This document shows, piece by piece, positions 30,299-49,424 of a stretch of 64,000 bases of DNA (positions are counted from its first letter, which is position 1; each line of letters opens with the position of its first letter). The stretch comes from Niabella ginsenosidivorans (GTDB taxonomy: Bacteria; Bacteroidota; Bacteroidia; Chitinophagales; Chitinophagaceae): positions 2,294,001 through 2,358,000 of the forward strand of contig NZ_CP015772.1 in assembly GCF_001654455.1 (NCBI RefSeq), in the 5' to 3' direction. The notes beneath the pieces are model-generated. The model was not told the origin of the DNA and made no database searches. It saw nothing but the letters and a program-made list of their open reading frames with translations. The position numbers and the translations under genes were made by a program.

Positions 30299-30352
30299 CT
30301 ATTGTTCTTACTTATTAAAAACTCCTCATAATTACACAGTGCTAAAAGACAC

Positions 30353-31897: not shown

Positions 31898-31908
31898 GCC
31901 TGTATTAT

Positions 31909-34900: not shown

Positions 34901-35070
34901 CCTTCCAGGGAAACCGTTACGCCGCTGAGCGGTAAATTGGAAGTGTCCGTTATAATACCGGAAATACTATTTCTGTCTTGCGCCTGTAATTGCAGTGCGC
35001 TTATACAGAGTACTAATAAAGCGAATAAATTTTTTTTAAACAACTTTAATTGGTTTATTAAAAGATTCAT
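31909..35070 (-). CDS. SusC/RagA-family TonB-dependent transporter (pair 1)
   Basis: I use the ATG at 35070 (MNLLINQLKLFKK); an ATG 4 codons earlier is possible. After the signal peptide (ending LQLQAQ) there is a carboxypeptidase-regulatory-like domain (about 35-115), the motif DEVVVIGYGT, the plug (about 125-240, with GVQVLQPQGRPGSG and GSRGSNGVVLVTT) and a 22-strand barrel to the final AR.VTFGTNISF. About 1053 residues is typical. It imports oligosaccharides across the outer membrane using TonB energy. It is expressed from the shared-element promoter at 35694-35761 through a leader of about 600 bases. Confidence 0.95.
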   Translation of the reverse strand: MNLLINQLKLFKKNLFALLVLCISALQLQAQDRNSISGIITDTSNLPLSGVTVSLEGSSHKTVSEEDGQYKINAVEGNAVLLFSLVGYQSQRVPVRDRHTVNVVMEQDVQDIDEVVVIGYGTKDRRSLTSSLSTIQAKNFENLKTSSMEQLIKGQAAGVQVLQPQGRPGSGINIRVRGIGSINAKNDPLYVIDGMPIEAPGYDQVTDVLSFLNPSDIESITILKDAASTAIYGSRGSNGVVLVTTKSGKNKEKLKLEVGAYYGFQTIPERGKFHMLNGEQYAQYQLERVKAWIEDAGGTFDPNNIPDTYAGYRKYVNYKGTGENWFDNITRTAPTEQYNVTITSGTPKSNMFLSFDYYSVDGVMRNTGYKRYSLRLNTESNPFPFLKIGLRVNPSYNLRQTFNSDLLNSLYLPNPTIAARNSDGSLNKTIGDAEIGNFLYNNWYLVTDNVTDYRNDFRLLTSANVDIQLAEGFYLKNVIGADMNFSRSRYFFPQSIGSPDMWTGNWMTEVDQSWSYGKSSRDEMRNFLIENYLSYTKKFGGKHEIDAMAGHSAQKQDYDADHLEAWNYPDDRIPYVYRQAMGTSGVADDGSDAFKYAIESYLARINYNFDNRYYFNASIRRDGSSRFSQSGRWGTFPSVSVGWDVANESFLKKIRDINVLKLRASYGYTGNANIGSSFAYYPALVNANYTFSNNLATGRYPAYVDKGLTWEKNKEYDFGLDLSILDRRLSFTVDYYNRRTYDLLLNRPTPVLLGAVSVLTNMGEVENKGWEFTVNSVNFNREDFQWNTGFNITFNKNKVLALNDFADPIEVGDEFNGSGYTAVGQPISMFRGYKILGVYKDQAEAEADHNHNPYAYAGSLKIQDTNNDGQITPDDRTIIGNPHPKFIFGMTNNVKYRNFDLSMLINGSWGAQVNVNQFQFIHNMDGVFNLETSVLDRWKSPEQPGKGIMPTTVDHDNQLQYVRLGNSTWIWDASYLSINNVTLGYTLPKFLLQKGKVFTNARFYISVQNAAMFCKSPLNNPEGNFAGTDLQMGNYIQIYPLARTVTFGTNISF

Positions 35071-35082
35071 ATTCCAATACAT

Positions 35083-35687
35083 TTTGTAGTAAATAAGCGA
35101 TAAGCATTTATGCTCATCAGGTCTGTCGGCTGAAGTTCTTTTGTTGAGTACAGTATGCTACCATACTCGCAAAATCTCCTCTTCCCCGGCAATAGCCAGG
35201 TCTTTAATGTTCGTCAATCATCCATTTAAAACTTGATTAGCGGATTTATGACAATTTCTTTTTTGATACCGATTTTTGTTCTCTCAGAACAGCTGCAACT
35301 CCTTAAAATAAGCTGTACCTCTTAAGCTGCTCCAAAACTGTCCTTAACGGACCTGTTGGGTTTCCTCGTCTGGACCTCTGTTTTACAAACAAAGAAACAA
35401 TCACCAGAGGTACAGCAATAAATTAGAGCAATCGCAATCAAATAATTAATGTAAGGATCAGTGCCTGGCGGAGAATCAACTGTATTAAGCATCAAATCTG
35501 AAATCATCCATTTTCAGTAATCAATCTCGGGGTATCGCAATACATACCTGATAAACTACCGTACAATAACTCCTGAATACTAACGGATCTCGATTCAATT
35601 GCAGCATCCTTAAAATATGCTCCTGACGGAGACCTTACACGAAGCAACAAACACTGATAAAACATATAGCTTGCAATTTATATTTAC
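35083..35687 (-). other. Long 5' leader of susC1 with long-range inverted repeat
   Basis: About 600 bases between the predicted promoter and the susC1 start hold no convincing gene. The 11-mer GCTGTACCTCT (35312-35322) has its exact reverse complement AGAGGTACAGC at 35406-35416, which could close an 83-base loop in the RNA. The 14-mer ATCGGTATCAAAAA occurs on the minus strand at 35260-35273 and again, on the plus strand, in the susC2 leader (40997-41010). This may be an RNA-level control region or the scar of a deleted gene. Confidence 0.4.
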
Positions 35688-35693
35688 CAATAG

Positions 35694-35761
35694 CTAAATT
35701 ACTTGCGTAAGGCTGTTGAAACTCCCTTAATGCCATCAAAAAATGATGCTTTTATAACATA
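35694..35761 (-). promoter_or_regulatory. Predicted promoter P1 of susC1 with shared operator element
   Basis: Read on the minus strand: a 43-base block (35719-35761) containing the 16-mer TATGTTATAAAAGCAT at its upstream end and finishing with GTTT. After 17 bases comes TAATTTAG (35694-35701), 7 of 8 matches to the Bacteroidota -7 element TAnnTTTG. The same layout with an identical 16-mer occurs at 40907-40974 upstream of susC2, and a diverged form at 46685-46752. GTTT would be the -33 box and the block above it the activator site. Confidence 0.6.
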
Positions 35762-35950
35762 TTATATCCTTGCAATACGCCTAAAATGCAATAGATTTTA
35801 TATTTTGTATACCGCTTTATTTTTTGTTGACCGGAAGTAATCAACAACCGTTTTGTTAGGATTGGGGGAACCCGGAATAATCAAAACAGCAAAGTTGCCT
35901 GTACTGCAATACATAGGTAATCCTGAATATGAATACGAAAGACGCAAAAC

Positions 35951-35983
35951 AAAATAGCTTCGCTATACAGGCGAAGCTATTTT
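35951..35983 (-). terminator. Rho-independent terminator after susD2
   Basis: AAAATAGCTTCGC (35951-35963) and GCGAAGCTATTTT (35971-35983) form a perfect 13-bp stem with a 7-base loop, followed on the minus strand by GTTTTG. It lies 19 bases after the susD2 stop. It ends the susC2-susD2 unit and so makes susC1 depend on its own promoter. Confidence 0.85.
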
Positions 35984-36001
35984 ATGAATAGAAAAATACG
36001 A

Positions 36002-37750
36002 TTATTTATAACCGGGATTCTGCTCCAGTTTTGGGTTGGCATTGATTGCACTTGCAGGAACCGGGAATCTGTTAAGGTACTCTTTTCCTGGCCCATCAGC
36101 AGGGTGATCCCACCATGCTTCGGTAGTGAATTTATTCCAACGCACCAGGTCCGTACGCCTACGGCCCTCGCCAATGAATTCAATCAGCCACTCATCCAAA
36201 AAACGGTACTCATCCAGGTTTCCGGCCGTAGCAGGATTAGGATCATTTCCCCCGGCGAAATAGCGCTTGCGTACTTCATTGATAAGATTAGCAGCCGTTG
36301 GTTTGTCGCCTAAACGCCACTTGCATTCCGCAAGCATGTACTGTATTTCTGTAAAACGTATCACAGGCACTTCAGGATTAAATCGAAGGGCATTGTCCGC
36401 TTCATTGGGAATAGGTGAATGTTTTAAAAGTCGTACACCTGAATTTTCTTCGCCATAGAGTGCCCCTTCTTTTCTTCCATTCGGATAACGTGTTCCGTTC
36501 GGGTCGGGCGCAAGCTGCGCCACCTGATCAACCATAGGAATGATGGTACCTTTGGGATATTCACGACTGCCATCCGCAATACAGGAAACGCCTGTGTGAG
36601 GATTTGTCAGCACTCCTGCTAAAAACATACCTGTATATTGCCCGTTGCCATTATAAACATAGTTTTTCTTACGCAGATCTGTTGCTTCAAATTTATCATA
36701 AGGGCTTCCTAATTTGAAAGGGCCGCCTAGGTTGCCGGCTACTTTAAGATAATGCTTACCATTAATATCTTGTGAAGGAAGCAAACAGAGCCCGTTCCAT
36801 GACATAGCACCAGGGTTATCCAGGTACATCCAGGTATTGTAATGGGTAGAGTACTGAGGTGTTCCACCGCCCACTTCGCGTTTGCTGTTTTCACTGGGTA
36901 CTACCCACATCAATTCAGGAGAAGTGGCATTAGAAAAGCCAAATATTTCCTGATAAGAACCAGCCAATGCATAAGGCCCGTACTCGCCATTTTTAATTTT
37001 TGTACAGATCTCAGCACATTTAGTATACATTTCTTCGCCCGTATACGGCCTGGCGTTGAAATATAATTTTGCCAATAAAGCCGCAGCGGTACCCTGGGAA
37101 ACATATCCTTTTTCTGCATCGCCCGATGCTTTTTTAGGCAAAGTGGGCAATGCTTCCAAAAGCAGCCCTTCAATAAACTCAAAGGTTTGTTTATCTGTAG
37201 CTCGTGATTGCAGTTCTGTTTGATTGGATGTATACAAAGGCATACCGCCAAATGCATCAAGCCCGATCATATAGAAATAGGCAACAAGCACTTTTATTTG
37301 ATTGAGCATTGACTCGCGTATTCCTTCAGGAAAACCCAATGCGTCAAAATCAACATTTTTGTCAATGTCTTCCACAGCGCTCCAGGCCTGAGCAATGCTC
37401 TCTGAAATAGCATCCCAAGTGTAATTCCAATAACCGTCAGTAGCTGGGGAAAACTGATGCGTAAAATGGTTGAGATAAAAACCACCATCATACCAGTCGC
37501 CATTACGGTTTGGCATCAGCAACTCATCGCTTGCCAGTGTATTCAATACTGTAAAACGCGCATAAGGAACACCCCCCTGATAAGTGGCCCAGCTTGTAAA
37601 CGGACGGGCAAAACGTTGATAGACTTTATCCTGACTGTCAAAAAAATTAGAAGGTGATACCTGCGAATAATATTCCGGATCAATGCTACAGCCCTGCAAA
37701 ACAGACATGCATATAGTCATTATTATAACTGATTTAAATATCTTTTTCAT
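36002..37750 (-). CDS. SusD/RagB-family glycan-binding lipoprotein (pair 2)
   Basis: The ATG at 37750 (MKKIFKSVII) is chosen; the frame extends two codons upstream only to a TTG. The lipobox VLQGC is followed by SIDPEYYSQVSPSNFF, the SusD mature start. 582 residues is longer than SusD1 (514). C-terminal family blocks are present (RFTEIQYMLAECKWRLG, FIGEGRRRTDLVRWNKF). Residues after 400 are rich in Asn/Gly/Pro loops that may form the binding face. Sequence identity to SusD1 is low by eye, so the two pairs probably bind different parts of the glycan. The start lies close to the susC2 stop. Confidence 0.95.
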   Translation of the reverse strand: MKKIFKSVIIMTICMSVLQGCSIDPEYYSQVSPSNFFDSQDKVYQRFARPFTSWATYQGGVPYARFTVLNTLASDELLMPNRNGDWYDGGFYLNHFTHQFSPATDGYWNYTWDAISESIAQAWSAVEDIDKNVDFDALGFPEGIRESMLNQIKVLVAYFYMIGLDAFGGMPLYTSNQTELQSRATDKQTFEFIEGLLLEALPTLPKKASGDAEKGYVSQGTAAALLAKLYFNARPYTGEEMYTKCAEICTKIKNGEYGPYALAGSYQEIFGFSNATSPELMWVVPSENSKREVGGGTPQYSTHYNTWMYLDNPGAMSWNGLCLLPSQDINGKHYLKVAGNLGGPFKLGSPYDKFEATDLRKKNYVYNGNGQYTGMFLAGVLTNPHTGVSCIADGSREYPKGTIIPMVDQVAQLAPDPNGTRYPNGRKEGALYGEENSGVRLLKHSPIPNEADNALRFNPEVPVIRFTEIQYMLAECKWRLGDKPTAANLINEVRKRYFAGGNDPNPATAGNLDEYRFLDEWLIEFIGEGRRRTDLVRWNKFTTEAWWDHPADGPGKEYLNRFPVPASAINANPKLEQNPGYK

Positions 37751-37768
37751 AATCAAAAATTCAATTGT

Positions 37769-40711
37769 TTAAAAAGTCAATTGCATGCCCAGAGTAAATG
37801 TGCGTGTTTGAGGATAAACCGAGGCCCATTCTACGCCGCCTTCCCAACCGGTAATATCAACCTCAGGGTTCAGACCTTTATATTTTGTAATGCGGAACAC
37901 GTTATTACCTGTTAGGTAAAATCTTGCGGACTCCATAATTTTTAAAAGCTTTTTCGTATTCAGCTTATAGCCCAGGGTAAAATTCTGAAGTTTTAGGAAG
38001 GTACCGTCCTGAAGGAAGTAATCACTTTCAAGCACCTGCCCCTGTATCGCCCCGTTTTTTGTATACGCATCAAGCAACTGGTTGCGCAAGCCACCAGGCA
38101 AACCGGCCTGCATGCCCATTTCATGCTCAATGGCATTGTATATGTCGTATTTAATCCAGCTGGTAAAGGTTAAGCCCAGTGAGAAGTTTTTATATTGCAG
38201 ATCATGCGTCCAACCTATGATTGCCTTAGGAATATAATTACCAATATAGCGTTTATCTTCAAGATTTTTGCCGTCAACTTCGGGTACAATCTTATTACCA
38301 TCCTTATCCAGCGCTATAAAACGCCCTTCGTTATCTACACCCGCGTATTGATACAACCAGAACGATCCTACCCGTGCATTTTCTTCAATACGGTGAAGAT
38401 CACCTGCACGGCCTACATAAGCACCTGTATAATAGGTTTGATTCCCCCATAAGGAACCGATCTTGGTAACATTATGGCTAACATTTGCTTTCATCGTATA
38501 GTCCCAGTTGCCGGCAGATACAACGTTCCCGCCAATTTCAAACTCCCATCCATTGTTTTTTAACGTACCTATATTTTTATACATCTGTGCCTGAACATAA
38601 GGAGGTTGTGGTACATCCACATTGTATATCAAACCCACTACGTTACGCGTGTACAAATCCAGTTTACCAAACAGGCGGCTATTAAACAGCACGAAATCTA
38701 TCCCAAGGTTCCACTCATGTTTTTCTTCCCATCCCAAATCCGGGTTGATGTTTTGGGTAATGCCATAGGAATAGGCCCAATTGCCATTTGGCAAAGGATA
38801 ATATGAATCAGCCCCATACATTGTTGCTGCGTAATCGGCAGAGAAGCCTTCATTGCCCGTTACACCATAAGAAGCACGGATCTTCAGGTCATTAATCGCA
38901 GCAATGTTTTGCATAAAGCTTTCTTGTGAAAGACGCCATGCTCCTGACACCTGCCAGAAATTACCCCAGCGTTTGTTGGCTGCAAATTTTGACGAGCCTT
39001 CGCGACGGAAAGTACCCGAAAGCAAATACCGGTCTTTAAATGAATAGTTGATACGGCCAAAATAAGCCAGCAGCTTTTGTGTGATCTGTTTTGACGATTG
39101 CATTTCAGCCTTGTTGGCAACAGCAGGATTGTTTAGGTTGATACCGGAGCCAATATCCCACATTTTAATACCATCTACAGCAAAGCCATAGTTTTTCATC
39201 CCAAACATTTCTCCGTTAAATTCATAGTAGCTGTAACCCGCAGCCGCGTTAACAGAATGGTCGCCAAGTGTATTGTTATAAGAGAAATAACCATCCGTAT
39301 TCAACCGGTTTTCTTTCTGGAATCTCAGCTCGGCAGTACCTTGCCCGCTAACGTTTTGATATTCCGTTACAGTAGTGGTGGATGGCGCATAATAATGAAA
39401 TTCGCTTTGGCGGTTCTCAAAACCTACGTTATGATGGTACGCCAATCCTTTTATCGGCTTGATGTTGAGCGTAAGTGCCACATCGGGACGGAACCATTTA
39501 TCCAATTGGTTATTGGTGATCAGCTCCGCATCGCGGATGGTATTGGGATCATCCAATCCGTTACGCGGGTTCCATTGCGTAAGGTCATAAGGAGAGCGTG
39601 TAGGATTTACCGCCAACAAAGTGCCAACGCCAGGCGACGACAAATCGCGGTTCGCCTGCCGGTAGGCAACGTGTGTTCCAATTTCCAACCAGCCATCTAT
39701 AAGCTTAAAATCGCCGTTGATGCGTCCGCTGTAGTCAATCCGGTCATCTCCCGAAAGTACTCCCCGGTTGTCTTCATAAGCTGCCGTAGCATAAAGTTTA
39801 GCTGTTGCAGTTCCGCCCTGAATATTCACCACATGGCGTTGCGAAGTAGGGTTCTTGCTCATGCCCTCTTCCCACCAGTCAATATCATATCCATAATTAG
39901 TAGCTCCTGGTTTGTATTTCAAATATTCCTCTGCGTTCATCACGCGGGGTTTTCCAAAATCCTGCTTGAAAATAACTTCGCCTATATATGAAATTTTCAT
40001 TTTTCCTTCCTGCGCTTTTTTAGTAGTGATCACAATAACGCCACCGGTAGCCCGGGTACCATAAATAGCACCTGCCGCAGCATCTTTCAATACGTCGATG
40101 GATTGAATATCTTCCAACGCCACTGAGCGCAGATCGCCACCAGGCATACCATCGATCACTACCAAAGGTTCACGTGATGTATTTACCGAAGCCATACCCC
40201 GTAACTGCAACGCAGTAGCCGAGTTAGGGCTGGCCGTTTCCTGAACCACCAAACTGCTAACCTTACCTTTGAGTGCATTGGCTATTGTAGCACCATTTAC
40301 ACCAGGCACCAGGTCTTTTGCTTTAAGCGAAGTAATGGAGCTCGTCAGGTTTTTCTTTTCTAGTGTACCATAACCCACTACTACCACTTCGTTCAACTGG
40401 GCCACGTCGGGGTTAAGGGCAACATCTACAGTTGAACGCGACCCGACAACTTCCTCATGCGTTTCCAACCCAACGGCCGAAAACACTAATGTACCTCCTT
40501 CAGCGGGTACGGCAAGCTTGTAAGCGCCTTTGGCATCCGTATTTGTGCCGTTATGCATGCCTTTTACAATCACATTTACTCCGGAAACAGGTAAGTTGTC
40601 TTTTGTTGTCGTTACTGTTCCGGTAATCGTTCGCTCCTGTGCCCATGCCCTTCCTTCAAGGAGAAGAATAAACAACAGCATGAACCCATTCATTAAGCAA
40701 ATCCTCTTCAT
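37769..40711 (-). CDS. SusC/RagA-family TonB-dependent transporter (pair 2)
   Basis: 980 residues with a signal peptide (ending GRAWAQ), carboxypeptidase-regulatory-like domain (about 28-108, TGTVTTTKDNLPVSGVNV), the motif NEVVVVGYGT (about 109-118), plug (120-235, GTRATGGVIVITT) and outer-membrane barrel ending TFTLGMQLTF. It is about 70 residues shorter than SusC1. It is the first gene of the PUL, transcribed from the predicted promoter at 40907-40974, and is separated from susC1 by a strong terminator. Together with SusD2 it should form an import complex. Confidence 0.95.
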   Translation of the reverse strand: MKRICLMNGFMLLFILLLEGRAWAQERTITGTVTTTKDNLPVSGVNVIVKGMHNGTNTDAKGAYKLAVPAEGGTLVFSAVGLETHEEVVGSRSTVDVALNPDVAQLNEVVVVGYGTLEKKNLTSSITSLKAKDLVPGVNGATIANALKGKVSSLVVQETASPNSATALQLRGMASVNTSREPLVVIDGMPGGDLRSVALEDIQSIDVLKDAAAGAIYGTRATGGVIVITTKKAQEGKMKISYIGEVIFKQDFGKPRVMNAEEYLKYKPGATNYGYDIDWWEEGMSKNPTSQRHVVNIQGGTATAKLYATAAYEDNRGVLSGDDRIDYSGRINGDFKLIDGWLEIGTHVAYRQANRDLSSPGVGTLLAVNPTRSPYDLTQWNPRNGLDDPNTIRDAELITNNQLDKWFRPDVALTLNIKPIKGLAYHHNVGFENRQSEFHYYAPSTTTVTEYQNVSGQGTAELRFQKENRLNTDGYFSYNNTLGDHSVNAAAGYSYYEFNGEMFGMKNYGFAVDGIKMWDIGSGINLNNPAVANKAEMQSSKQITQKLLAYFGRINYSFKDRYLLSGTFRREGSSKFAANKRWGNFWQVSGAWRLSQESFMQNIAAINDLKIRASYGVTGNEGFSADYAATMYGADSYYPLPNGNWAYSYGITQNINPDLGWEEKHEWNLGIDFVLFNSRLFGKLDLYTRNVVGLIYNVDVPQPPYVQAQMYKNIGTLKNNGWEFEIGGNVVSAGNWDYTMKANVSHNVTKIGSLWGNQTYYTGAYVGRAGDLHRIEENARVGSFWLYQYAGVDNEGRFIALDKDGNKIVPEVDGKNLEDKRYIGNYIPKAIIGWTHDLQYKNFSLGLTFTSWIKYDIYNAIEHEMGMQAGLPGGLRNQLLDAYTKNGAIQGQVLESDYFLQDGTFLKLQNFTLGYKLNTKKLLKIMESARFYLTGNNVFRITKYKGLNPEVDITGWEGGVEWASVYPQTRTFTLGMQLTF

Positions 40712-40906
40712 ACTTTAAATTGGTTTGGTTTGGTAAATTGAAGTTTCCTCATTTTTTAAGCGGTATTTGTGTTTATTCAGCAATCGTGGTTTAAGTTATG
40801 GCGTAAGCTTAAACTGAATAAAAACTCCTGTATGGCTTAACTAATAAAAGAAATTGCTGCTGAAAGTAAATAACGGAAGTCGCTAACCTTTGGCAGCAAT
40901 GCAGTG

Positions 40907-40974
40907 TAAAAGTAATTGGATCACGTCCCCTAAACTTCCTCAAAAAAGGCAAAAAAATATGCTTTTATAACATA
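40907..40974 (-). promoter_or_regulatory. Predicted promoter P2 of susC2 with shared operator element
   Basis: On the minus strand the block 40932-40974 opens with the 16-mer TATGTTATAAAAGCAT (identical to the copy at 35746-35761), continues through a T-rich tract and ends in GTTT. TACTTTTA (40907-40914) follows after 17 bases and matches TAnnTTTG at 7 of 8 positions. Predicted transcription would start near 40900, leaving a leader of about 190 bases before susC2. Confidence 0.6.
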
Positions 40975-40996
40975 CGGCGTTCCTGTTTTACAACGA

Positions 40997-41043
40997 ATCG
41001 GTATCAAAAATCATTTCTCGTCACAGTCAGTTCGAACACTGAC
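40997..41043. promoter_or_regulatory. Upstream 14-mer and palindrome before promoter P2
   Basis: ATCGGTATCAAAAA at 40997-41010 is repeated, inverted, in the susC1 leader (35260-35273). It is followed by the palindrome GTCAGT-TCGAAC-ACTGAC (41026-41043), which could be a protein site or a small hairpin. Both lie upstream of the shared element, between it and the terminator of the sugar operon. The rest of the gap 40712-41251 holds the susC2 leader and nothing else I can name. Confidence 0.3.
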
Positions 41044-41141
41044 CGTGGTGTGGGCCGAACAAACCACTTGTGATTGCGAACATCTAATAAAATTGATCGT
41101 CAATTACAATGGCCATTTCATTATTCGGATATTCTCATTAA

Positions 41142-41176
41142 AAAACCCTTTACAATGCTTAATAGTAAAGGGTTTT
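41142..41176 (-). terminator. Rho-independent terminator after the sugar operon
   Basis: AAAACCCTTTAC (41142-41153) pairs perfectly with GTAAAGGGTTTT (41165-41176), an 11-base loop between them; the minus strand continues into AAT after TTTT. It lies about 75 bases after the cyclase stop and ends the six-gene operon before the PUL promoter. Confidence 0.75.
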
Positions 41177-41251
41177 GTAGAAAAAACGTTGCTTCTATTG
41201 CAATAACTGCTCTCTGTTAAGACAATTTGTGCTCGCTTCTTTCTTGTTTTT

Positions 41252-41884
41252 TTATTCATCAACCATTGCCACAGCGCGAATTGGTGAGCCGTCTCTCCCT
41301 TTAAAGTTCAACGGAAACCCAATGAAAGTAAACTGATCCGGAAGTTGATCAAGATTTGCTAATGACTCAACAATCACAATCTCATTAGGCAATAAAATGT
41401 CGTGATGGATCTCATACCAGTCTTTACTGGGTGTGGGCGTATCCATACCTAAAAAACGGATGCCACATTCGGCCAGATATTTCCCCGCCTCCTGGGTAAG
41501 CGAAGGAAAATCGGAATAAAAATTTTCTTTTCCGAATTGCCGATACCAGCCTGTTTCATAAATGATCCTTGCACCTCTCTGTAAAACAGACCGGTAAGGT
41601 ATAAAATCATCGGGGGTAATTTCTTCATTTGCCTGTTTCGGTATCCGGATGAGATGTGTTGTACCATAAAACCAATCCAGTGGCATCTGATCAAGTGTTT
41701 TGCCTTCGTCCAAAAAATGATACATAGCATCTACGTGTGTTCCCTGATGGCTTCCCATACTGACCTGCGTAATATTATATTTAAGCGTTTTGGTAGTACC
41801 ATGCGGTATAATACTCAGCTTGGGGTCCCAGGGAAAAGTTTGCTGTCCGTGCTCTAATGGATGGGAAAGATCTATCAATTTCAT
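41252..41884 (-). CDS. Cyclase / kynurenine-formamidase-like metal hydrolase
   Basis: 210 residues, no signal peptide, so cytoplasmic. MKLIDLSHPLEHGQQTFPWDP at the start and HQGTHVDAMYHF (about 45-57) give the metal-binding His/Asp pattern of the putative-cyclase family (PF04199), which includes kynurenine formamidase and isatin hydrolase and opens amide or lactone-like bonds. Residues near 145-150 (LGMDTPTPS) are also typical. It is the last gene of an operon of dehydrogenases and a transporter. A lactonase step in oxidative sugar breakdown would fit this setting, but that is inference. Nothing points to tryptophan degradation nearby. Confidence 0.75.
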   Translation of the reverse strand: MKLIDLSHPLEHGQQTFPWDPKLSIIPHGTTKTLKYNITQVSMGSHQGTHVDAMYHFLDEGKTLDQMPLDWFYGTTHLIRIPKQANEEITPDDFIPYRSVLQRGARIIYETGWYRQFGKENFYSDFPSLTQEAGKYLAECGIRFLGMDTPTPSKDWYEIHHDILLPNEIVIVESLANLDQLPDQFTFIGFPLNFKGRDGSPIRAVAMVDE

Positions 41885-41934
41885 ATTGGATTCGTTTTAT
41901 AGTTTATGATATTACCAACGACAGCGTTGACGCC

Positions 41935-42795
41935 TTATTTATTTGTATGTGTTAATTGATATTTTTTTGGGGTAAGCCCTGTAATTTTTTTAAACTGTTC
42001 ATTAAAATTGGACAGATTTTGAAACCCGCTCTCATAACACACTTCGGTAACGGCCCTGTCTTCCTGCATCAGCAGTTTACACGCATATCCTACCTTAAGT
42101 TCAATTATGAATTGCCGGAAGGGTTTGCGCATACGGCTTTTAAAATACCTACTGAAGGCTGAAGGCGACATGTGAGCTACTTCTGCAACCTCAACAAGGT
42201 TAATGTCCTTATGAAAATTATTCATAATATATTCATAAATCTTTCTTAACCGTTCTGAACCGGGGTCTTCAATTGATTTAACAAACACTTCACTTGATAG
42301 TTCTACAAGATCCTCAGAAGTGGAAAGGATATCCAGTAACGACAACAGCAACCTGATCTTTTCAATACCCTTTGTTTTTTCCATAGCCAGCAGTAATTCG
42401 GTCAGCACCACTTTTGTTTTTCCTGTGATCCTGATCCCCCTGTGTGAACGCTCCAGCAATGCGAGAACATTTTTCATTTCGGGCGATTCAAAAAACCGGT
42501 GCCCCCACATATCCTCCAAAAAATGCAGTACTAGCGCTTCTGCCTTTTTATAATTTTTTATACCCTCATTACGCCAGGTATGGGGAAGGTTCTTTCCAAT
42601 AAATATCAGATCTCCGGCGGCAAAAGAATCAATATGATCTCCTACCATACGGGTACCATTGCTTTCCAGGATTAATGTAAGCTCGTATTCGTCGTGAAAA
42701 TGCCAGATTGCCGGGAACCGGTCCTCATGCACGTATCTGTTAACCGCAAAAGATTCAGAATCGGTCTTCTGGACTTTCATTAATTTAGGAATCAT
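41935..42795 (-). CDS. AraC-family transcriptional regulator with cupin sensor domain
   Basis: 286 residues. The N-terminal half (about 15-100, FPAIWHFHDEYELTLILES, GDLIFIGKNLPHTW) is a cupin ligand-binding fold as in RhaS/RhaR-type regulators. The C-terminal 100 residues hold two helix-turn-helix motifs (VAEVAHMSPSAFSRYFK and VCYESGFQNLSNFNEQFK) and end with LTPKKYQ. Such proteins sense a sugar and activate promoters from sites next to the -35/-33 box. It is the only DNA-binding regulator in the PUL and operon region, so it is the best candidate to bind the element shared by three promoters. A weak half-site-like sequence sits at 42805-42817, just upstream of its own start. Confidence 0.9.
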   Translation of the reverse strand: MIPKLMKVQKTDSESFAVNRYVHEDRFPAIWHFHDEYELTLILESNGTRMVGDHIDSFAAGDLIFIGKNLPHTWRNEGIKNYKKAEALVLHFLEDMWGHRFFESPEMKNVLALLERSHRGIRITGKTKVVLTELLLAMEKTKGIEKIRLLLSLLDILSTSEDLVELSSEVFVKSIEDPGSERLRKIYEYIMNNFHKDINLVEVAEVAHMSPSAFSRYFKSRMRKPFRQFIIELKVGYACKLLMQEDRAVTEVCYESGFQNLSNFNEQFKKITGLTPKKYQLTHTNK

Positions 42796-42865
42796 AAATA
42801 ACCAATGGTTTTATGACCTAAACATAATATAAAATCCGGCAAAACGCTATAAATACATTATTTTT

Positions 42866-43861
42866 TTAGCTTTTAGCGTAAATAATGAGTAATACGCCAA
42901 TAATGTAGCAACAAAACATGCTGTACAATAGCCAGGACGTACCCGGCGGAGCATTCCGAAACTCTTTCCATACAAAAACACCCCAGATTGCTGCCACCAT
43001 GGCATTTCCCTGCCCCAACCCAAAAGAGATGGCAAAGCCCGCATTTCCTGCTGAAAGGATGCTGAATGTAAGGCCCAGCCCCCAAACGGCACCTGCAAGA
43101 ACACCCATAAGATGCCTGAAAACGGAACCGGCGAGGTAGTCTTTAAACCCCAACGGCTTTCCCTGAAAAGGTTTTTTCATGAGTAGGGTATTCAACAGCA
43201 GGTTGCTTATGAGCACACCAAAAGCAAAACAACAAGTTGCCGAATAAGGCCCCAGCCTGCCCGACTCTGGCACTTTAAAATTAGGGTACATGGCGGCGGC
43301 AACAAACCGGTAAAAACATCCAAAAAGTATCCCTGCCAATAAAGAAAGAATAATTCCCTTGCCGGAAAATTTATGATTTCCAGAAACCCTGCGGTGTGAA
43401 ACAGAAGATAACAAAATTGCGGCGGCAATAAATATTACCCCGCCAAACAGGTAAACCGGCTTTCCTGCAGGTAAGGCAATATAATTAACAACAACACCCA
43501 GAATCAACCCGGTACCGGCTCCAATTGAAAATGCAACCGCCATACCTGCAATAGCAATGGCTGCTACAAACAGAATATTGGCCGCGTTAAAAATAACCCC
43601 TCCTATAGCAGCCGATATGAGATTGTTTAAATCCGCCTGACGCAGATCCTCCATAAAACTGCTTCCATAATTGCCAAACGACCCTAAAGTAAAAGCAAGA
43701 AGTAAGGTTACCGCCACAATACCCAATACATAATCCCAATAAAACAGTTCAAACCGCCATGAAGCGCCCGCCATCTTTTGCAATACCGGCCAGGAACCCC
43801 AGCAGATCATTGTAATAAATAGCAATATTATGGCAATGGAATACGTTTCTGCAACAAACAT
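42866..43861 (-). CDS. DMT/ureide-permease-type (GRP-like) transporter
   Basis: 331 residues with about ten hydrophobic helices and no cleaved signal; an inner-membrane protein. The opening ICWGSWPVLQK and FELFYWDYVLGI are typical of the ureide-permease/GRP sugar branch of the drug/metabolite transporter superfamily, as are AISFGLGQGNAM and IWGVFVWKEF near the C-terminus. In Bacteroidota such permeases are often labelled multidrug DMT, but operon context indicates uptake of a sugar or sugar acid. It is encoded between the 2-hydroxyacid dehydrogenase and the AraC regulator. Confidence 0.8.
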   Translation of the reverse strand: MFVAETYSIAIILLFITMICWGSWPVLQKMAGASWRFELFYWDYVLGIVAVTLLLAFTLGSFGNYGSSFMEDLRQADLNNLISAAIGGVIFNAANILFVAAIAIAGMAVAFSIGAGTGLILGVVVNYIALPAGKPVYLFGGVIFIAAAILLSSVSHRRVSGNHKFSGKGIILSLLAGILFGCFYRFVAAAMYPNFKVPESGRLGPYSATCCFAFGVLISNLLLNTLLMKKPFQGKPLGFKDYLAGSVFRHLMGVLAGAVWGLGLTFSILSAGNAGFAISFGLGQGNAMVAAIWGVFVWKEFRNAPPGTSWLLYSMFCCYIIGVLLIIYAKS

Positions 43862-43897
43862 AGTTTTTAGTTTTTTAACCGGTCTTCAGTTCCTGTT

Positions 43898-44851
43898 TTA
43901 TATCACCCTGTTTTTAAGCGGTTCTGACTGCAGCCCCCGGAGCACTTCCGCAGCCGCCATTTGTTGCAAAGCCGGCACGCTGCGCTCACTATACCAGGCT
44001 GTGTGCGATGTAAGCACTGCATGCTCCACGCCCCATAAAGGATGTGTTTCCGGTAACGGCTCATTTTCAAACACATCCAGCCCTGCCACTACCCGCCGTT
44101 TTGAAAGTGCCGCAGCCAATGCTTCCGTATCAATAAGTCCGCCCCTAGAAGTATTGATAATAATTGCGCCCTGCTTCATTTGCTCAATGGTTGCCGCGTT
44201 TATTATATGCTGCGTTTCAGCCGTAAGCGGAAGGTGTAATGAAATAATATCGGCTCCGGATATCAGCTCCTCAAAACTCAAAGCTGCAACCCCGGCTTCC
44301 TTTAACTGAAAGGGGTTGATCTTTGGATCATAGGCTCCTACTTTAAAACCCAAAGACTTTGCGCTTTTAAGAACTTCCCTGGCAATGCGGCCAAAACCGA
44401 TAGTACCAAACAGCATATCCCGAAAAGCCGGCATTCTGTAAGGAGGCACGATCTTCCACTCGCCTTTTTTGAGCCGGTTATTGATCTCGCCCAATTGACG
44501 CGAAAGCGAAAGTGCAAGAGCGAGTGTATGATCGGCTACTTCATTTATACAATAATCCGGCACATTACAGACCGGTATTGATTTTTGCTTGGCTGCATTT
44601 AAATCCACATTATCCACCCCAATACCGTATCGCACTATAATCTTACATTTATTAAGGTGTGCAATCAGGCGGGCACTTATAGGCGCCCACTGAACCAGTA
44701 AGGCATCAGCATCTGTGCAAGCTTCAATCAATTCATCTTCCGTGCTGGTTTCCAGTGCTACTAAATCATAGCCATGCTCCCGGAACATTTTTAACTCCTG
44801 TTCAAGATCTTTAAATCCATAATCGGTTATTACAATCTTTCCTTTGCTCAT
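43898..44851 (-). CDS. D-isomer-specific 2-hydroxyacid dehydrogenase family protein
   Basis: 317 residues, cytoplasmic. The N-terminal catalytic lobe ends in VRYGIGVDNVD. The NAD-binding lobe has GFGRIAREVLKSAKSLGFK, a GxGxx(G/A) dinucleotide motif. Active-site residues are visible: Arg in NTSRGGLID, Glu in VFENEPLP and His in LTSHTAWYSE. It resembles the CtBP/phosphoglycerate-dehydrogenase-like branch. It should interconvert a 2-keto acid and a D-2-hydroxy acid with NAD(H). It starts 8 bases after the zinc dehydrogenase stop, so the genes are co-translated. The likely substrate is an intermediate of oxidative sugar breakdown. Confidence 0.88.
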   Translation of the reverse strand: MSKGKIVITDYGFKDLEQELKMFREHGYDLVALETSTEDELIEACTDADALLVQWAPISARLIAHLNKCKIIVRYGIGVDNVDLNAAKQKSIPVCNVPDYCINEVADHTLALALSLSRQLGEINNRLKKGEWKIVPPYRMPAFRDMLFGTIGFGRIAREVLKSAKSLGFKVGAYDPKINPFQLKEAGVAALSFEELISGADIISLHLPLTAETQHIINAATIEQMKQGAIIINTSRGGLIDTEALAAALSKRRVVAGLDVFENEPLPETHPLWGVEHAVLTSHTAWYSERSVPALQQMAAAEVLRGLQSEPLKNRVI

Positions 44852-44859
44852 TTGAACTG

Positions 44860-45909
44860 TTATTTATCTGAATGGTTCTTTGCTGGTTCCATAACCAACA
44901 CCGATTTTATATGAGACCCCTTTGCCTCCATCATATCATAAAAAGCAGTAATACCATTTTCTAAATTATAGTAGTTGATCCATGAGGTCATGTCAACCTT
45001 TCCTGAAGCGATCAGGCTGACAGCATCTCGCATATCCTCCTGTGTTGCGGCGTAACTTCCAACCGCCTGTTTCTCAGCCAGTACCAGATCATAGCTTTCC
45101 AGCGATTTGCTGTTTTGGTGAAGTCCGATCATTAACAGAACACCTCCGGGCTTTAATACCTTCAACCCATATTGGTTTGTTTGGGCGGATCCAACTGCAT
45201 CCACAACCAGATCAATAGAAGCGCCTCCTGACATTTCAGATAGTGTAGCTACCAGCTCCTGACGGGAAGGATTAATTACCCCGGAAGCTCCCAGCTTTTG
45301 GGCAATTGACAGCCGGTCTTCTAAAAGATCGGCTACAAAAACATGGACCTGCCGCATAGATCTGAATGCCTGCAAAGCCATAAGCCCTATTGGTCCGGCG
45401 CCGATGATGAGCATATTATTGACGGGAATATGTTTACTAAGCTTTACCAGGTGTACACCGTTAGCCAGTGGCTCTGCCAGGCAAGCCGCATGAAAAGGAA
45501 CCATTTCCGGCAATGGTATCAAACAATGCGCCGGTACATTCACATATTCGGCAAATGCCCCGTTGCGCTGCATTCCAAATACCTGCCGGTTTTGACAAAG
45601 GTTTGTTTTTCCGGAAGTACACAACTCACAATGCCCGCAGGGAACAATGGCGTTACTTACTACCCGGTCTCCTTTTTTCCAATCAGCCACAGATTCCCCT
45701 ACATCAACAATGACACCACTAAATTCATGACCCATTATTAATGGCGGCACCCGCCGGCTACTATGCGATTTAAAGGTTTCCAGCTCACTGCCACAGATGC
45801 CACAGGCGGCTACTTTTATCAGTACCTCGTTCTTTGCCATGTAAGGGACCTGCTGATCTGTAATTTCCAACAGATCATGTTTGGGGTAAAAAAGTGTTTT
45901 CATCGTCAT
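44860..45909 (-). CDS. Zinc-dependent medium-chain alcohol/polyol dehydrogenase
   Basis: 349 residues. CGICGSELETFKSH (about 37-50) and GHEFSGVIVDVG (about 60-71) carry the catalytic zinc ligands; CGHCELCTSGKTNLC (about 93-107) has four Cys for the structural zinc. The Rossmann motif is GAGPIGLMALQAF near 170. The product resembles sorbitol, threonine and galactitol dehydrogenases. It oxidises a secondary alcohol of a polyol or sugar with NAD(P). ATG codons at 45909 and 45903 follow directly on the SDR stop, so translation is coupled. Substrate not readable. Confidence 0.9.
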   Translation of the reverse strand: MTMKTLFYPKHDLLEITDQQVPYMAKNEVLIKVAACGICGSELETFKSHSSRRVPPLIMGHEFSGVIVDVGESVADWKKGDRVVSNAIVPCGHCELCTSGKTNLCQNRQVFGMQRNGAFAEYVNVPAHCLIPLPEMVPFHAACLAEPLANGVHLVKLSKHIPVNNMLIIGAGPIGLMALQAFRSMRQVHVFVADLLEDRLSIAQKLGASGVINPSRQELVATLSEMSGGASIDLVVDAVGSAQTNQYGLKVLKPGGVLLMIGLHQNSKSLESYDLVLAEKQAVGSYAATQEDMRDAVSLIASGKVDMTSWINYYNLENGITAFYDMMEAKGSHIKSVLVMEPAKNHSDK

Positions 45910-46656
45910 TTACTTTGCCAGATATCCTCCATCCACCAATAAATCGCTTCCTGTTATGAAGGAAGCGTCATCACTTGCCAGAAAGGCAGCAGCAGCAGCA
46001 ACTTCCTCCGGCCTTCCCTGCCGCCCCAATAAATGCATGGCAGCAGCCCTGCGATCTTCTGCCTCAATATCCAATCCCAGTTTTTCGCATGAATCAATAA
46101 ATGCCCTGGTATAGATATAACCCGGGCACAGCGTGTTCACCCGTATTCCAAAGGGTGCCAGATCCTGTGCCCAGCATTTCGCCAGTCCCCTGAGCGCAAA
46201 TTTGGTTGCATTATATGTTGCAAAGTTTGCCTGCCCGATAAATCCGCTGACCGATGATATATTTATAATACTTCCTTTGCCAATTTCCTGCATTTGCGGA
46301 ACGATATACTTTGTTATTAATGAAGTACCGCAAATATTTACAGCATTGATGCGCTCCCAATCTTCCGCACTTGCATCAACACCTTTAAAAATAAAACAGG
46401 CGGCGGCGTTCACCAGTATGCTCACTTTGCCCAGTTCCTCCGCGATAGCAGCACAGACAGCGGTTACCGCACCTTCGTTACTGATATCGACCTGCCAGTA
46501 GCGTGCGCCGATCGAGCTGGCTTTCGCTTCTGTATCAGGAGCTACATCCAGCAAAACAACAGAACACCCTTCCTCTGATAAACGGCTGGCTATGGCAAAG
46601 CCTAAATCCCCCAAACCTCCGGTAACGACAGCAATCTGATTTTTTAACCCTTTCAT
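45910..46656 (-). CDS. SDR-family NAD(P)-dependent oxidoreductase
   Basis: 248 residues of the classical short-chain dehydrogenase type. VTGGLGDLGFA (about 12-22) is the cofactor loop; NAAACFI, the Ser in NISSVSGF (about 135-142) and YNATK (about 153-157) make the NAAG-like and Ser-Tyr-Lys sites; LRVNTLCPGYI-like and LVDGGY end the fold. Family members in such operons include L-fucose, L-rhamnose and 2-keto-3-deoxy-L-fuconate dehydrogenases, which suits the rhamnose/fucose-rich PUL, but the exact role is not proven. It is the first gene of the operon, 29 bases after the predicted -7 box of P3. Confidence 0.9.
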   Translation of the reverse strand: MKGLKNQIAVVTGGLGDLGFAIASRLSEEGCSVVLLDVAPDTEAKASSIGARYWQVDISNEGAVTAVCAAIAEELGKVSILVNAAACFIFKGVDASAEDWERINAVNICGTSLITKYIVPQMQEIGKGSIINISSVSGFIGQANFATYNATKFALRGLAKCWAQDLAPFGIRVNTLCPGYIYTRAFIDSCEKLGLDIEAEDRRAAAMHLLGRQGRPEEVAAAAAFLASDDASFITGSDLLVDGGYLAK

Positions 46657-46684
46657 AATGTTATTTTACAATTCGTTAATAAAA

Positions 46685-46752
46685 CAAATTTAGTTCCCGT
46701 TGTTGTAAAAAAACTACGCTTTCATGCCTAAAAAAGATACTTGGATAACATG
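46685..46752 (-). promoter_or_regulatory. Predicted promoter P3 of the sugar operon with diverged shared element
   Basis: On the minus strand: CATGTTATCCAAGTAT (46737-46752, 12 of 16 identical to the element in P1 and P2), a T6 tract, GGCAT, and GTTT at 46711-46714. After 18 bases comes TAAATTTG (46685-46692), an exact TAnnTTTG -7 element. Predicted transcription would start about 20 bases before the SDR gene. This is the best-formed of the three related promoters. Confidence 0.65.
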
Positions 46753-46794
46753 ACAAGCTAGATTTCAATATTTTTAAGTTAAAATGTCTTATAT

Positions 46795-47028
46795 CTATTC
46801 CAACTGGCTAAACACAGCCGGGTTATGCACCACTTCACTTCCAAGCATTCTGAAATCGCTATATGATTCTGCACCGTAATCTTTATAGGCCGGTTTAGAT
46901 GCATAAATAAAATCAATATGTTCTGCGGTATTTAGATCTTTGATCTCCGTGACAAAATATGCAGTTTTACGCAAGTTTGAATTAAAGTTTTGGATGGTCT
47001 CTATAGCAAGAAATGTATAAGCAATGCC
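46795..47028 (-). pseudogene. C-terminal tail of an unidentified gene
   Basis: A 77-codon open stretch without ATG, ending at the TAG at 46795-46797, has protein-like composition (RKTAYFVTEIKDLNTAEHID, then KPAYKDYGAESYSDF). A stop lies directly upstream in frame; another frame just upstream reads MRPLFAAGHFKALLIHF. I do not recognise the family. It looks like the last third of a decayed cytoplasmic protein. The rest of the gap 46657-47101 holds promoter P3. Confidence 0.45.
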
Positions 47029-47101
47029 TTAAAATGCCCGGCAGCAAATAAAGGGCGCATTACTATATTTCTATTCTACAATAACGGAAGCCTGTCGTCT
47101 G

Positions 47102-47914
47102 TTAATATTCGTAAAACTCACGCAGCTTTATGCGCTTATATTGGCTGTGTATTTCCCGCTTCAGAAAGTATCGGTGAGAGAAGCCCGTCAATACGACGAT
47201 TCGTTTCGCCGGATTTTGTTTAACAATTGCAACGATATTTTTTGCCATAGTTTTATTTCGCAAATCCCAAAAGTGTGACAGGCTGCTATAAGCATTTCGT
47301 ACACTTACTTTTGTTCCCAAAATTGTGGTTACAAATAGTTTTGAGAATTCATCCCTTTGATTTATAACTTTTCTGATTTTGTGGTGTTGGTAAATCTGTT
47401 TCCTTTTCGCGAGCTTATCGAGCTCAGAACTATTAAATTCAGAAGCTGGCTTGTTAGCATAACTATTCAATTCTTCTGTAAGCGAGTAGTATTTTTTTAC
47501 AATTTTAGTTTGACGTTTTCTCAAAAGTTTATTTCTATATAAACTATCCAGTAACTTCCCGGTTAAATTTTGCGATTGTTTAATTCCATGCTGCAGGCGA
47601 TAAGTATCCCGGTTTTCGTAATCAAAATGTGAGGCAATAGTTAAAGGATGTAGTTCAATATACCGGGCTATAGCAACCGGTTCGTTCTCTTTTGATTTGT
47701 ATTTCAGCCCGAATTTTTCATCAAACGTTTTTGAAAATAGCCCACTATCCAGCTCAAGAAGGATAATATCAGGCTTTACCTTTTCAAGAATGGTGAAAAG
47801 GGTGTCTGCATTAAAGCTTTCTGACGCAACGTGGGCATTACCAATAATAGTAAGTTCCTGGCTGAAAAGGTAAGCCGGGAAAATCAGAGCGATTAAAGTT
47901 ATAACACCTCTCAT
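47102..47914 (-). CDS. Secreted TIKI/TraB/ChaN-like protein
   Basis: 270 residues with a signal peptide (ending YLFSQ). The order is ELTIIGNAHVASESFNADT, then VKPDIILLELDSG, a long charged helical middle (about 110-200) and a C-terminal block NKTMAKNIVAIVKQNP followed by RIVVLTGFSHRYF. The GxxH near the start, the ILLELD strand and the GFSHRYF end match the Tiki/TraB/haem-binding-uptake superfamily, as in DUF5694-like proteins; some members are metalloproteases. Role unknown. It does not share an obvious operon with the sugar genes. Confidence 0.6.
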   Translation of the reverse strand: MRGVITLIALIFPAYLFSQELTIIGNAHVASESFNADTLFTILEKVKPDIILLELDSGLFSKTFDEKFGLKYKSKENEPVAIARYIELHPLTIASHFDYENRDTYRLQHGIKQSQNLTGKLLDSLYRNKLLRKRQTKIVKKYYSLTEELNSYANKPASEFNSSELDKLAKRKQIYQHHKIRKVINQRDEFSKLFVTTILGTKVSVRNAYSSLSHFWDLRNKTMAKNIVAIVKQNPAKRIVVLTGFSHRYFLKREIHSQYKRIKLREFYEY

Positions 47915-48146
47915 TGTAGAATTTTCCTATATACTACACGCCTGAATGCCTGCAATGTTACACCGCCAGGCTAATGAGAGCGGATTTTTACTTTCAAAAG
48001 ATATGGGTTTCCCCCGGTAATATTCAAATATCTTAATTTATGCTTTCATAAAATTATAGATACCAATGGTGGTTTTCGATACTTTCTTTTTTTTTCACTT
48101 TATGTATTCATCAATCCGGAAGTATAAATCAGGATTGGCTTTTGAA

Positions 48147-48524
48147 TTAGTTTTTTCGCCGGAAAATTGCTTTTTCCTCTAAAGTCGCAGGGTCAAAACC
48201 TGGATAATAGGTTTCCTTGGTAAAGGTAACAACGTTGGGTATATTCTCTTTTATGGCATAGGACACTACATCATTAGCAAGCCGCAGTTGTCTTGCTAAT
48301 TCTTCGTTCAGGGTGTCGGCCATTCCATATTCCTCCGGGGAGTCTGACAAAATCCGTATGTGTTTACGATGCCAGTATTTGAGCGGGATAGCGATTTCGG
48401 TGTTGAGAGGGAGGAATTTTTCTGTTTTCGCAATACTGAAGAAGATCAGAGCGGTACCATCTTTTCTTGCCTTGCTCTTTAGGCAAATGGGTTTAATTGG
48501 TAACAGTTCGATTGATTTACTTTC
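48147..48524 (-). pseudogene. Truncated tyrosine-integrase N-terminus
   Basis: An open frame of 125 codons runs from 48524 to a stop at 48147. Its only ATG is internal (48350), so the true start is lost or non-ATG. The translation begins SIELLPIKPICLKSKARKDG and continues with KTEKFLPLNTEIAIPLKYW. This is the pattern of the arm-DNA-binding domain of Bacteroidota phage-type integrases (three strands, then xxxxxIxxxxWxxxxxxI), followed by the helical linker (LNEELARQLRLANDVVSYAI). The core-binding and catalytic domains are missing. It is a remnant of an integrated mobile element. Confidence 0.6.
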
Positions 48525-48709
48525 TTAATCCTGCTTACAGGAAAGAAGAATGATCTTGAATGACAATAGCTGCCTGCTTCAATGCGCTTACAACCTGCGT
48601 TTAAAACCGTTGAGTCCCGGCTTTCGTCATTTTTATTTTGCCTGCTGGTTCAGGTGAACGTATTTGTCAAAAATTACATCTCTTTGTCAAATCCCGCCTG
48701 TCGTCTAAT

Positions 48710-49002
48710 ACGATAGTGAAATTTATTATAGACCTAAACAAAGCATTGCTACTAAAAACCGGGGCATTAAAATTCCTCCAAAGCAGATGGGATCTATTGA
48801 TTCTCAACACCCTTGTATTTCCAGGAAGCACCAAAAGAAAAGGCACATGCGGCAAATGCTCCCGCGGAAATAGTGCCTTCCTGCTGGTGAGGCAGGGAAT
48901 AGCGCTGATAATCCTCCATCTGCGCTTCCGCCATTGGCGGAAGTCTGCGTTCCGAAGGTCCGGAACAGCGGGGACGTAACACGATAGTGAAATTCATTAC
49001 AG
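48710..49002. repeat. Pair of 22-bp direct repeats with an internal palindrome
   Basis: ACGATAGTGAAATTTATTAT (plus AG) at 48710-48731 recurs as ACGATAGTGAAATTCATTAC (plus AG) at 48981-49002, 20 of 22 identical. Between them is the near-perfect palindrome CTTCCGCCA-T-TGGCGGAAG (48925-48943). There is no convincing gene between them. Next to the integrase remnant, these may be ends of a lost element. The remaining bases of 48525-49424 hold only the fragment below. Confidence 0.45.
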
Positions 49003-49141
49003 GTCAATAAAAGGGTTGCATTTTTGCGGGAAACTTTTTGGTCTGATTAAAATGCCATTTCCGTATAAACCGTCAATCCAACTATCTTTGAAAAACCAGC
49101 ACAATGTAAGCCCGCTCCCAAATGTTGATGAACGTAGCTAA

Positions 49142-49279: not shown

Positions 49280-49424
49280 GGCCAAATGGCAAAAGCCGGA
49301 ACTTTTACAATAGAAGGCTGAGAAAATTAAATCGCTTCACAACGAACCGCTATTAAAATTTTCTTTATTATAGTAATGCCGGCTGTAGCCTTCTAATAAA
49401 ATAAAGCTAATCATAAAACGTCTG

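Follow-up and report, generated by a model that had tools for sequence, protein, structure and literature searches.

Introduction

Among described regulators of sugar use in the Bacteroidota, two AraC-family proteins are among those closest to the system considered here. Deletion of CgrA (ZGAL_3159) in Zobellia galactanivorans slows growth on carrageenan (PMC5698469, available in part), and Bacteroides RhaR is presented in the accessible sections of PMC3870299 and PMC3878776 as a positive regulator for rhamnose with a predicted direct-repeat site of 21-bp period; on these sections, RhaR is the nearest known system by sugar and family. For hybrid two-component system (HTCS) sensors with an AraC-type output domain, the available part of PMC3878776 likewise predicts direct repeats, with a mean period of 21 bp, in promoters of polysaccharide utilization loci (PULs). 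Here we analyse a 43-bp block that recurs upstream of susC1, susC2 and an operon headed by sdr in a 64,000-nucleotide stretch of Niabella ginsenosidivorans (hereafter the window, C1:2294001-2358000 of the single-contig, 5.63-Mb genome G000). An earlier note had read the block as the activator site of the AraC protein encoded at 41935-42795 of the window; its observation was right, and its interpretation appears largely to hold. We consider it very probable that the block is the operator of this protein, which would activate an operon for inner-membrane uptake and oxidation together with two susCD systems and a gene of rhamnosidase-like type. HTCS sensors are membrane-anchored, whereas the candidate regulator here is a 286-aa protein with a cupin-like and a helix-turn-helix (HTH) part.

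Results

The blocks exceed chance in their own genome

The exact 16-mer ATGCTTTTATAACATA reported by the earlier note was found at both 35746-35761 and 40959-40974, and its third copy, ATACTTGGATAACATG, matches at 12/16 positions at 46737-46752. The other features claimed for the blocks were equally borne out: the plus-strand start AAACT, the A tracts (A6, A7 and A6), the minus-strand GTTT with a −7 box 17, 17 and 18 bases past it, and the likeness of these boxes (7/8, 7/8 and 8/8) to TAnnTTTG, the sigma-A −7 box at positions −12 to −5 (PMC9723704, as far as its text was available). Read on the minus strand (alignment columns 3-45), the blocks are TATGTTATAAAAGCATCATTTTTTGATGGCATTAAGGGAGTTT at susC1, TATGTTATAAAAGCATATTTTTTTGCCTTTTTTGAGGAAGTTT at susC2 and CATGTTATCCAAGTATCTTTTTTAGGCATGAAAGCGTAGTTTT at sdr.

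The 16-mer was rejected as a unit of evidence, with five different 16-mers exactly repeated in the window and, when three mismatches are allowed, 191 places in the genome that match it loosely, as compared with 109 for its reversed form. Within the window, such matches numbered 6 (1.33 expected). Of 2000 dinucleotide shuffles, one gave a 16-mer common to both susC intergenic regions, and the fit of the third intergenic region to the block was equalled in 4 of 1000. The blocks of the window exceed chance, but not on account of the 16-mer. Model R1, which covers the operator only (45 positions, eight training sites including the three of the window), returned the three blocks as the only strong matches in the own genome, the next best having an expect value (E) of 0.113. 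The random scatter across the genome that the earlier note had named as telling against its reading was seen with neither R1 nor R2, a model of 70 positions built from 14 training sites.

R2 gave a fourth own-genome site (C1:2286439-2286504; E 1.7e-5, next match 0.0095) at a distance of 7.5 kb from the left end of the window, which is outside the R2 training set and had E 0.113 with R1. It precedes a gene with glycoside hydrolase (GH) 78-type domains (rhamnosidase-like) and sits behind a minus-strand gene row (GH106, GH78, GH30) that starts inside the left edge of the window, and the regulon in the own genome therefore probably comprises at least four promoters. This site and the distant susCD sites of relatives described below are invisible from the window, and the second half-site of the operator was missing from the earlier note.

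The block is found in relatives together with a close araC

Comparison with relatives is, in our judgement, the deciding evidence for the block. The samples were 294 family genomes, 12 genomes from the genus to which G028 belongs and a class-wide set of 395 genomes. With a matrix trained on the three blocks of the window alone, the 11 sites of six relatives scored 27.4-39.8 and the fourth own site 28.4. No other position in these 13 loci, which span 255,712 bases, scored above 16.9; a diverged site in G123:C6 scored 14.2 and an orphan site in G336 scored 29.2. Its top matches lay in the promoters of a susC operon and of GH78 in G028, and in the GH78 promoters of G123, G239 and G359, with nothing notable in the loci of G279, G380 and G185 or in the first-examined stretches around the araC genes of G272 and G123:C6. 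In further stretches, the G272 site stands before the susC that opens the same-strand gene row leading to araC, and the G394 site stands before GH78.

Among the matches listed for the family genomes, araC relatives of 56-65% identity occur in G272, G028, G123 (two copies) and G239, and the remaining matches have at most 45% identity; the closest found on named contigs (59%) belong to Chitinophagaceae metagenome-assembled genomes. In the genus of G028, 5/12 genomes hold a close araC, which adds G359 (two copies) and G394, while the class-wide set, at E<=1e-70, contained no araC closer than 44% outside the own genome. The sdr-cyclase-adh-hadh-permease genes (53-82% identity) follow a GH78 rhamnosidase at araC-bearing loci of G028, G123, G239, G359 and G394; the permease was not found in the stretch of G239 examined. 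The same genes occur without a close araC at the locus in G279 and G380 (behind GH78) and in G185 (different order, sdr first), and these loci (L137, L138, L141) also lack the operator. In G279 and G380 a SusC of similar length and N-terminus (by eye) adjoins the sdr operon, which supports a shared function. Another AraC-type gene lies near the sdr genes of G279 (L147:5445-6332), which suggests replacement of the regulator.

The converse arrangement is seen in G272, which shares araC and operator with the own genome and lacks the sdr operon. A second araC of G123 (59% identity, L063:9711-10571) lies in another PUL, with the diverged operator (L155:16621-16663) before the susC of the gene row that holds this copy, and forms a natural pair for studying a change of specificity. 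Among the window proteins compared, araC alone matches closely (at least 56%) in the G272 and G123:C6 loci and in the sdr-type loci alike. R1 also located sites before distant susCD pairs in four relatives, on contigs apart from araC in three (G394:C38, G123:C2, G239:C20) and 185 kb from the first site of the genome in G359:C23.

Genome-wide, R1 gave best E values of 1.0e-9 to 2.3e-6 in all six of the genomes with a close araC. Of 15 other genomes (in 11/15 a search for a close araC found none; G309, G335, G358 and G379 lay outside that search), G336 reached E 5.5e-5 and the remaining 14 at least 0.0088, where all 21 genomes match something at E<=0.5. R2, run with stricter filters over the 294 family genomes, matched at E<=1e-4 in G000, G028, G123, G239 and G272 only, which are exactly those with an araC of at least 56% identity among the matches listed (chance 1 in C(294,5) = 5.7e-11). 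Some araC relative at E<=1e-30 is present in 189/294 family genomes, and yet the operator at this threshold is confined to the genomes with an identity of at least 56%, so distant AraC relatives were set aside as carriers of the same operator.

Taken together, the sites, their restricted occurrence and their link with this AraC clade are direct observations, and the assignment of the regulator by the earlier note gains support from the co-occurrence of operator and close araC in the 294 genomes, from G272 and from the joint absence of araC and operator at the sdr loci of G279, G380 and G185.

The operator is a direct repeat that abuts the −33 position

When the operator was compared with itself at an offset of 21 bp across 14 aligned sites, the identity was 0.526, as against 0.327±0.064 for shuffled columns, which reached 0.526 in 5/2000 cases. 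The majority bases that match between the halves are G4/G25, T6/T27, A7/A28, T8/T29, A11/A32, A12/A33, A15/A36, T16/T37 and A17/A38, giving a direct repeat of 21 bp with an approximate half-site consensus of G-w-T-A-T-n-w-A-A-n-n-A-T-A. A palindromic reading of TATGTTATAAAAGCATA proved weak, with 6/8 base pairs matching in the susC2 copy (by eye) and fewer in copies 1 and 3.

GTTT ends the operator, at the −33 position, in 14/14 aligned sites (same column in 12/14), and TAnnTT stands at the same column in all 14, 16-18 bp past GTTT, so that the site abuts the −33/−35 element as AraC class II-type activation requires. The Bacteroidota sigma-A −33 consensus is TTTG; at the three window sites this box reads GTTT instead, and by eye TTTG is missing from columns 42-48 at 13/14 sites, the exception being the susC site of G028.

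Conservation follows the same boundaries. Mean pairwise identity over the 14 sites was 0.73 for the operator and 0.80 for the −7 box, with 0.25-0.33 for flanks and spacer; for eight promoters of non-orthologous genes the corresponding values were 0.69, 0.74 and 0.25-0.32, and in the three window sites operator and −7 box were 0.65-0.67 alike (flanks and spacer 0.25-0.41). A likeness limited to two blocks points to selection and not to recent descent. The 21-bp repeat, the near-fixed distance to the −7 box in 14/14 sites and this conservation support the proposal of the earlier note that an activator site lies directly above the −33 box.

Properties of the AraC protein

The C-terminus of the protein encoded at 41935-42795 carries a double HTH (PF12833 E 6.3e-21 and PF00165 1.7e-13 in Pfam; Foldseek HTH match 3oou, TMt 0.89), and its N-terminus has a weak Cupin_2 match (E 4.9e-5, 23.4 bits, under the Pfam cut-off of 27.2). 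In the predicted model (pLDDT 80.5) the domains match AraC 2arc and RhaR 5u93/5u9e at TMt 0.57-0.66, with a low overall TM of 0.32-0.42 against full-length AraC-family proteins. The predicted architecture, a double HTH with an N-terminal cupin-like effector domain, fits the AraC/XylS family. What we take to be the first recognition helix reads SP(T/S)(A/S)F in nine close sequences, that of the window included, and SYSGF in three relatives of 41% identity, while recognition helix 2 is near identical across all of them. Five araC relatives of 41-42% identity (Mucilaginibacter, Pontibacter, Niastella) have look-alike sites about 90-110 bp before araC, pointing away from it, which mostly carry TGTCAAAA (...TTTG and variants) in place of the TGTTATAA of own-type sites; look-alikes beside some relatives of 41-42% identity score 13-19 bits. 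These sequences fit a common ancestor with shifted specificity, but are no more than suggestive of it.

Genes and features of the locus

With two susCD pairs and GH78, GH106, GH43, GH2, GH29 and GH65 family domains, the window holds a PUL (Table 1). We took 39 genes from the 70 listed open reading frames (ORFs), scanned 34 with Pfam and judged the other five by eye from their first residues. None of the 34 encodes the hybrid two-component sensor that would be expected beside an HTCS-controlled PUL, and the earlier statement that the window lacks both such a sensor and an extracytoplasmic function (ECF)/anti-sigma pair agrees with the scan and with the judgement by eye. The sdr operon is tight, with gaps of 0, 8, 36, 70 and 50 bp and operator 3 upstream.

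The presence of GH78 and GH106 in the PUL, and of GH78 first behind the operator in relatives, points to a rhamnose glycan. We dropped the naming of a sugar pathway from sequence alone, since the nearest solved relatives of the short-chain dehydrogenase (headed by glucose 1-dehydrogenase), the zinc enzyme adh (threonine dehydrogenases) and the cyclase (a metal-dependent hydrolase and kynurenine formamidases) leave no decision. The operon version of G185 holds an extra gene of the fumarylacetoacetate hydrolase family (L141:9206-10018), which hints at a non-phosphorylating deoxysugar route. No known RNA element was found at Rfam gathering scores in 30000-49500. A generic sigma-70 promoter and terminator scan was set aside because its counts were at shuffle level (28 vs 27.9 and 12 vs 12.0).

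Table 1. Positions of operators, promoter elements and genes (window numbering unless a locus is named)
Feature	Position	Strand	Remarks
Operator 1, 43 bp, susC1 promoter	35719-35761	−	R1 E 1.5e-8 in own genome
Operator 1 half-sites	~35744-35760 and ~35723-35739	−
GTTT at −33, operator 1	35719-35722	−
−7 box TAATTTAG, susC1 promoter	35694-35701	−	17 bp past GTTT; sequence read and alignment
Operator 2, 43 bp, susC2 promoter	40932-40974	−	R1 E 2.5e-9 in own genome
Operator 2 half-sites	~40957-40973 and ~40936-40952	−	latter degenerate
−7 box TACTTTTA, susC2 promoter	40907-40914	−	17 bp past GTTT; sequence read and alignment
Operator 3, 43 bp, sdr operon promoter	46710-46752	−	R1 E 2.0e-7 in own genome
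Operator 3 half-sites	~46735-46751 and ~46714-46730	−
−7 box TAAATTTG, sdr operon promoter	46685-46692	−	18 bp past GTTT; sequence read and alignment
sdr, short-chain dehydrogenase	45910-46656	−	first operon gene
adh, zinc-binding alcohol/polyol dehydrogenase family	44860-45909	−
hadh, D-2-hydroxyacid dehydrogenase family	43898-44851	−
Inner-membrane permease	42866-43861	−	ureide permease / sugar transport type
AraC-family regulator, cupin-like + HTH_18, 286 aa	41935-42795	−	proposed activator; fifth gene of sdr operon
PF04199 cyclase / metal-dependent hydrolase	41252-41884	−	last operon gene
Candidate terminator after sdr operon	41139-41179	−	18-bp inverted repeat (89%)
susC2, TonB-dependent SusC/RagA protein	37769-40711	−
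susD2	36002-37756	−
Candidate terminator between the two susCD units	35951-35983	−	perfect 13-bp inverted repeat after susD2
susC1, TonB-dependent SusC/RagA protein	31909-35082	−
susD1	30353-31897	−
Poorly defined glycosidase-like proteins (GH116-like, DUF5703, MGH1-like)	28351-30195, 26048-28306, 2894-4825, 9147-10502		PUL behind susC1
Look-alike sites of 41-42% araC relatives	L073:7910, L074:7907, L075:3379, L126:7895, L076:7905	−

Discussion

Proposed mechanism

We propose that an AraC dimer binds the two direct half-sites, whose period of 21 bp would put both monomers on one side of the double helix. The downstream half-site would end at the GTTT at −33 with the −7 box 16-18 bp further on, and the bound protein would activate the sigma-A RNA polymerase at promoters of which most have no TTTG at −33; E. 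coli AraC activates at araBAD from such a position. The units under control would be susC1D1 (perhaps with the glycosidase genes behind it), susC2D2, the sdr-adh-hadh-permease-araC-cyclase operon and the rhamnosidase-like gene left of the window. Because araC lies inside the regulated operon, a self-amplifying switch with positive feedback is predicted. Rhamnose, or a compound formed when a rhamnose-containing glycan is broken down, is the probable inducer and would be sensed in the cytoplasm. One cytoplasmic sensor would probably switch on the entire pathway that begins with glycan import and finishes with sugar oxidation. Binding, activation, autoregulation and the inducer are what we infer from the arrangement of sites and genes.

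Other readings of the block

That the blocks are a chance likeness of AT-rich promoter DNA is barely credible: the five exactly repeated 16-mers of the window show how readily short identities arise there, but the block is specific, conserved and, at E<=1e-4, restricted to genomes with a close araC (G336 excepted), and we regard chance as refuted by the recovery of sites in relatives with the three-block matrix across a clear gap in score. It is also very improbable that they are copies of one recently duplicated promoter with no regulatory meaning; the exact 16-mer shared by both susC blocks would fit such an origin, whereas the unlike flanks and spacers around alike operators and −7 boxes speak against it, both in the three window sites and in the eight promoters of non-orthologous genes.

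A real operator could belong to another regulator, for instance a global one of Crp type or a different AraC protein from the same genome, which holds 46 HTH_18 matches, and the upstream half of the block does resemble the Bacteroides Crp consensus TATGTTnTAnAACATA given in the available part of PMC3878776. We think this quite unlikely. The consensus, with up to two mismatches, occurs at 44 places in the genome as against 53 for the reversed control, none of the 44 at the three sites, and the Crp-type palindrome was therefore rejected; a site for a global regulator would not be confined to one locus, a Crp-type reading leaves the second half-site unexplained, and araC is the single close match common to the G272, G123:C6 and sdr-type loci among the window proteins compared. 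Somewhat less improbable, though still unlikely, is that this AraC binds the block and represses, or acts both ways, since the downstream half-site touches −33, where a bound protein could block the polymerase, and dual-acting AraC proteins exist. Activation fits better with a site that adjoins −33 without covering the −7 box, with the missing TTTG at 13/14 sites and with the position of araC within the regulated operon. CgrA and RhaR, two AraC-type sugar regulators of the Bacteroidota, are moreover both positive in the parts of the reports available.

Several observations weigh against control of these promoters by AraC as we propose it. The second half-site of the susC2 copy is degenerate (GCCTTTTTTGAGG), and it is in relatives that the repeat shows most clearly; GTTT is one base off in the sdr site of the window and in the susC site of G239; and the susC1 transcript would carry a leader of about 600 nt (35083-35693, minus strand), in which no minus-strand ORF of 100 aa and no Rfam match was found. 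The relatives with sites are few (six genomes, in two genera besides the own), and because the R2 training sites cover all five positive genomes, the run over 294 genomes speaks for specificity and not for sensitivity. Four genomes without a close araC reached E 6.2e-4 to 9.4e-4 with R2. In G336, which has no close araC, a well-formed site with the −7 box TATTTTTA (L219:1930-1972; G336:C12:387929-387971, plus strand) has R1 E 5.5e-5, and for 3.4 kb no ORF of 100 aa follows on the same strand; it is possibly a relic or a small-RNA promoter.

Significance and comparison with known systems

AraC control of the block, as favoured here, offers a defined operator, a defined candidate for its regulator and a small set of targets, in a family without such a case in the literature searched. 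It predicts that, in relatives, a distant susCD pair and the oxidative operon vary in step with each other and with a single soluble protein, and the 70-bp model can be used to search other genomes for targets of this AraC clade. Outer-membrane import, hydrolysis, inner-membrane uptake and oxidation may thereby form a single unit under a one-component sensor. More tentatively, and with rather more doubt than confidence, we suggest that the small-AraC clade of the Chitinophagaceae is a portable master switch. On this reading araC and its 43-bp operator would move as a pair from one PUL type to another, unrelated one (a GH78-sdr type and the GH2/GH127/E1-dehydrogenase type of G272, with a look-alike locus in G123), would bring distant susCD pairs under control in trans, and would both be absent where relatives keep the same enzymes. 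If true, PUL control would have a third mode, keyed to a cytoplasmic product and self-amplifying, beside membrane-bound sensors and sigma/anti-sigma pairs.

The geometry recalls E. coli AraC at araBAD (structures 2arc and 1xja), which combines a cupin domain and two HTHs with a pair of direct half-sites at a period of 21 bp, of which the second reaches the −35 region, although sugar and promoter class differ. In the open-licence literature, mostly titles and the starts of abstracts, no report of this operator or of an AraC-controlled Chitinophagaceae PUL was found, and the regulon appears new. On the available text of PMC3878776, ManR of B. thetaiotaomicron is likewise one cytoplasmic regulator, predicted to govern a SusC/SusD-like system, extracellular mannosidases, uptake and catabolism, but it belongs to the GntR family and concerns mannosides. 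RhaR shares the AraC family, the 21-bp-period direct repeat, rhamnose and positive control, whereas its Bacteroides regulon, as given in the accessible sections, is one operon of cytoplasmic enzymes and a transporter; that proposed here extends to two susCD systems and a rhamnosidase-like gene. CgrA is, like the protein studied here, an AraC-family protein in a PUL; it is needed for normal growth on its glycan, and the carrageenan-induced regulon takes in a susCD pair away from the PUL, while the glycan is another one and the PUL of CgrA is described, in the part of PMC5698469 available, as lacking susCD; that part gives neither an operator nor the position of a promoter. With ManR and CgrA already described, the kind of system is known, and the regulon proposed here would be a further case with a well-defined operator.

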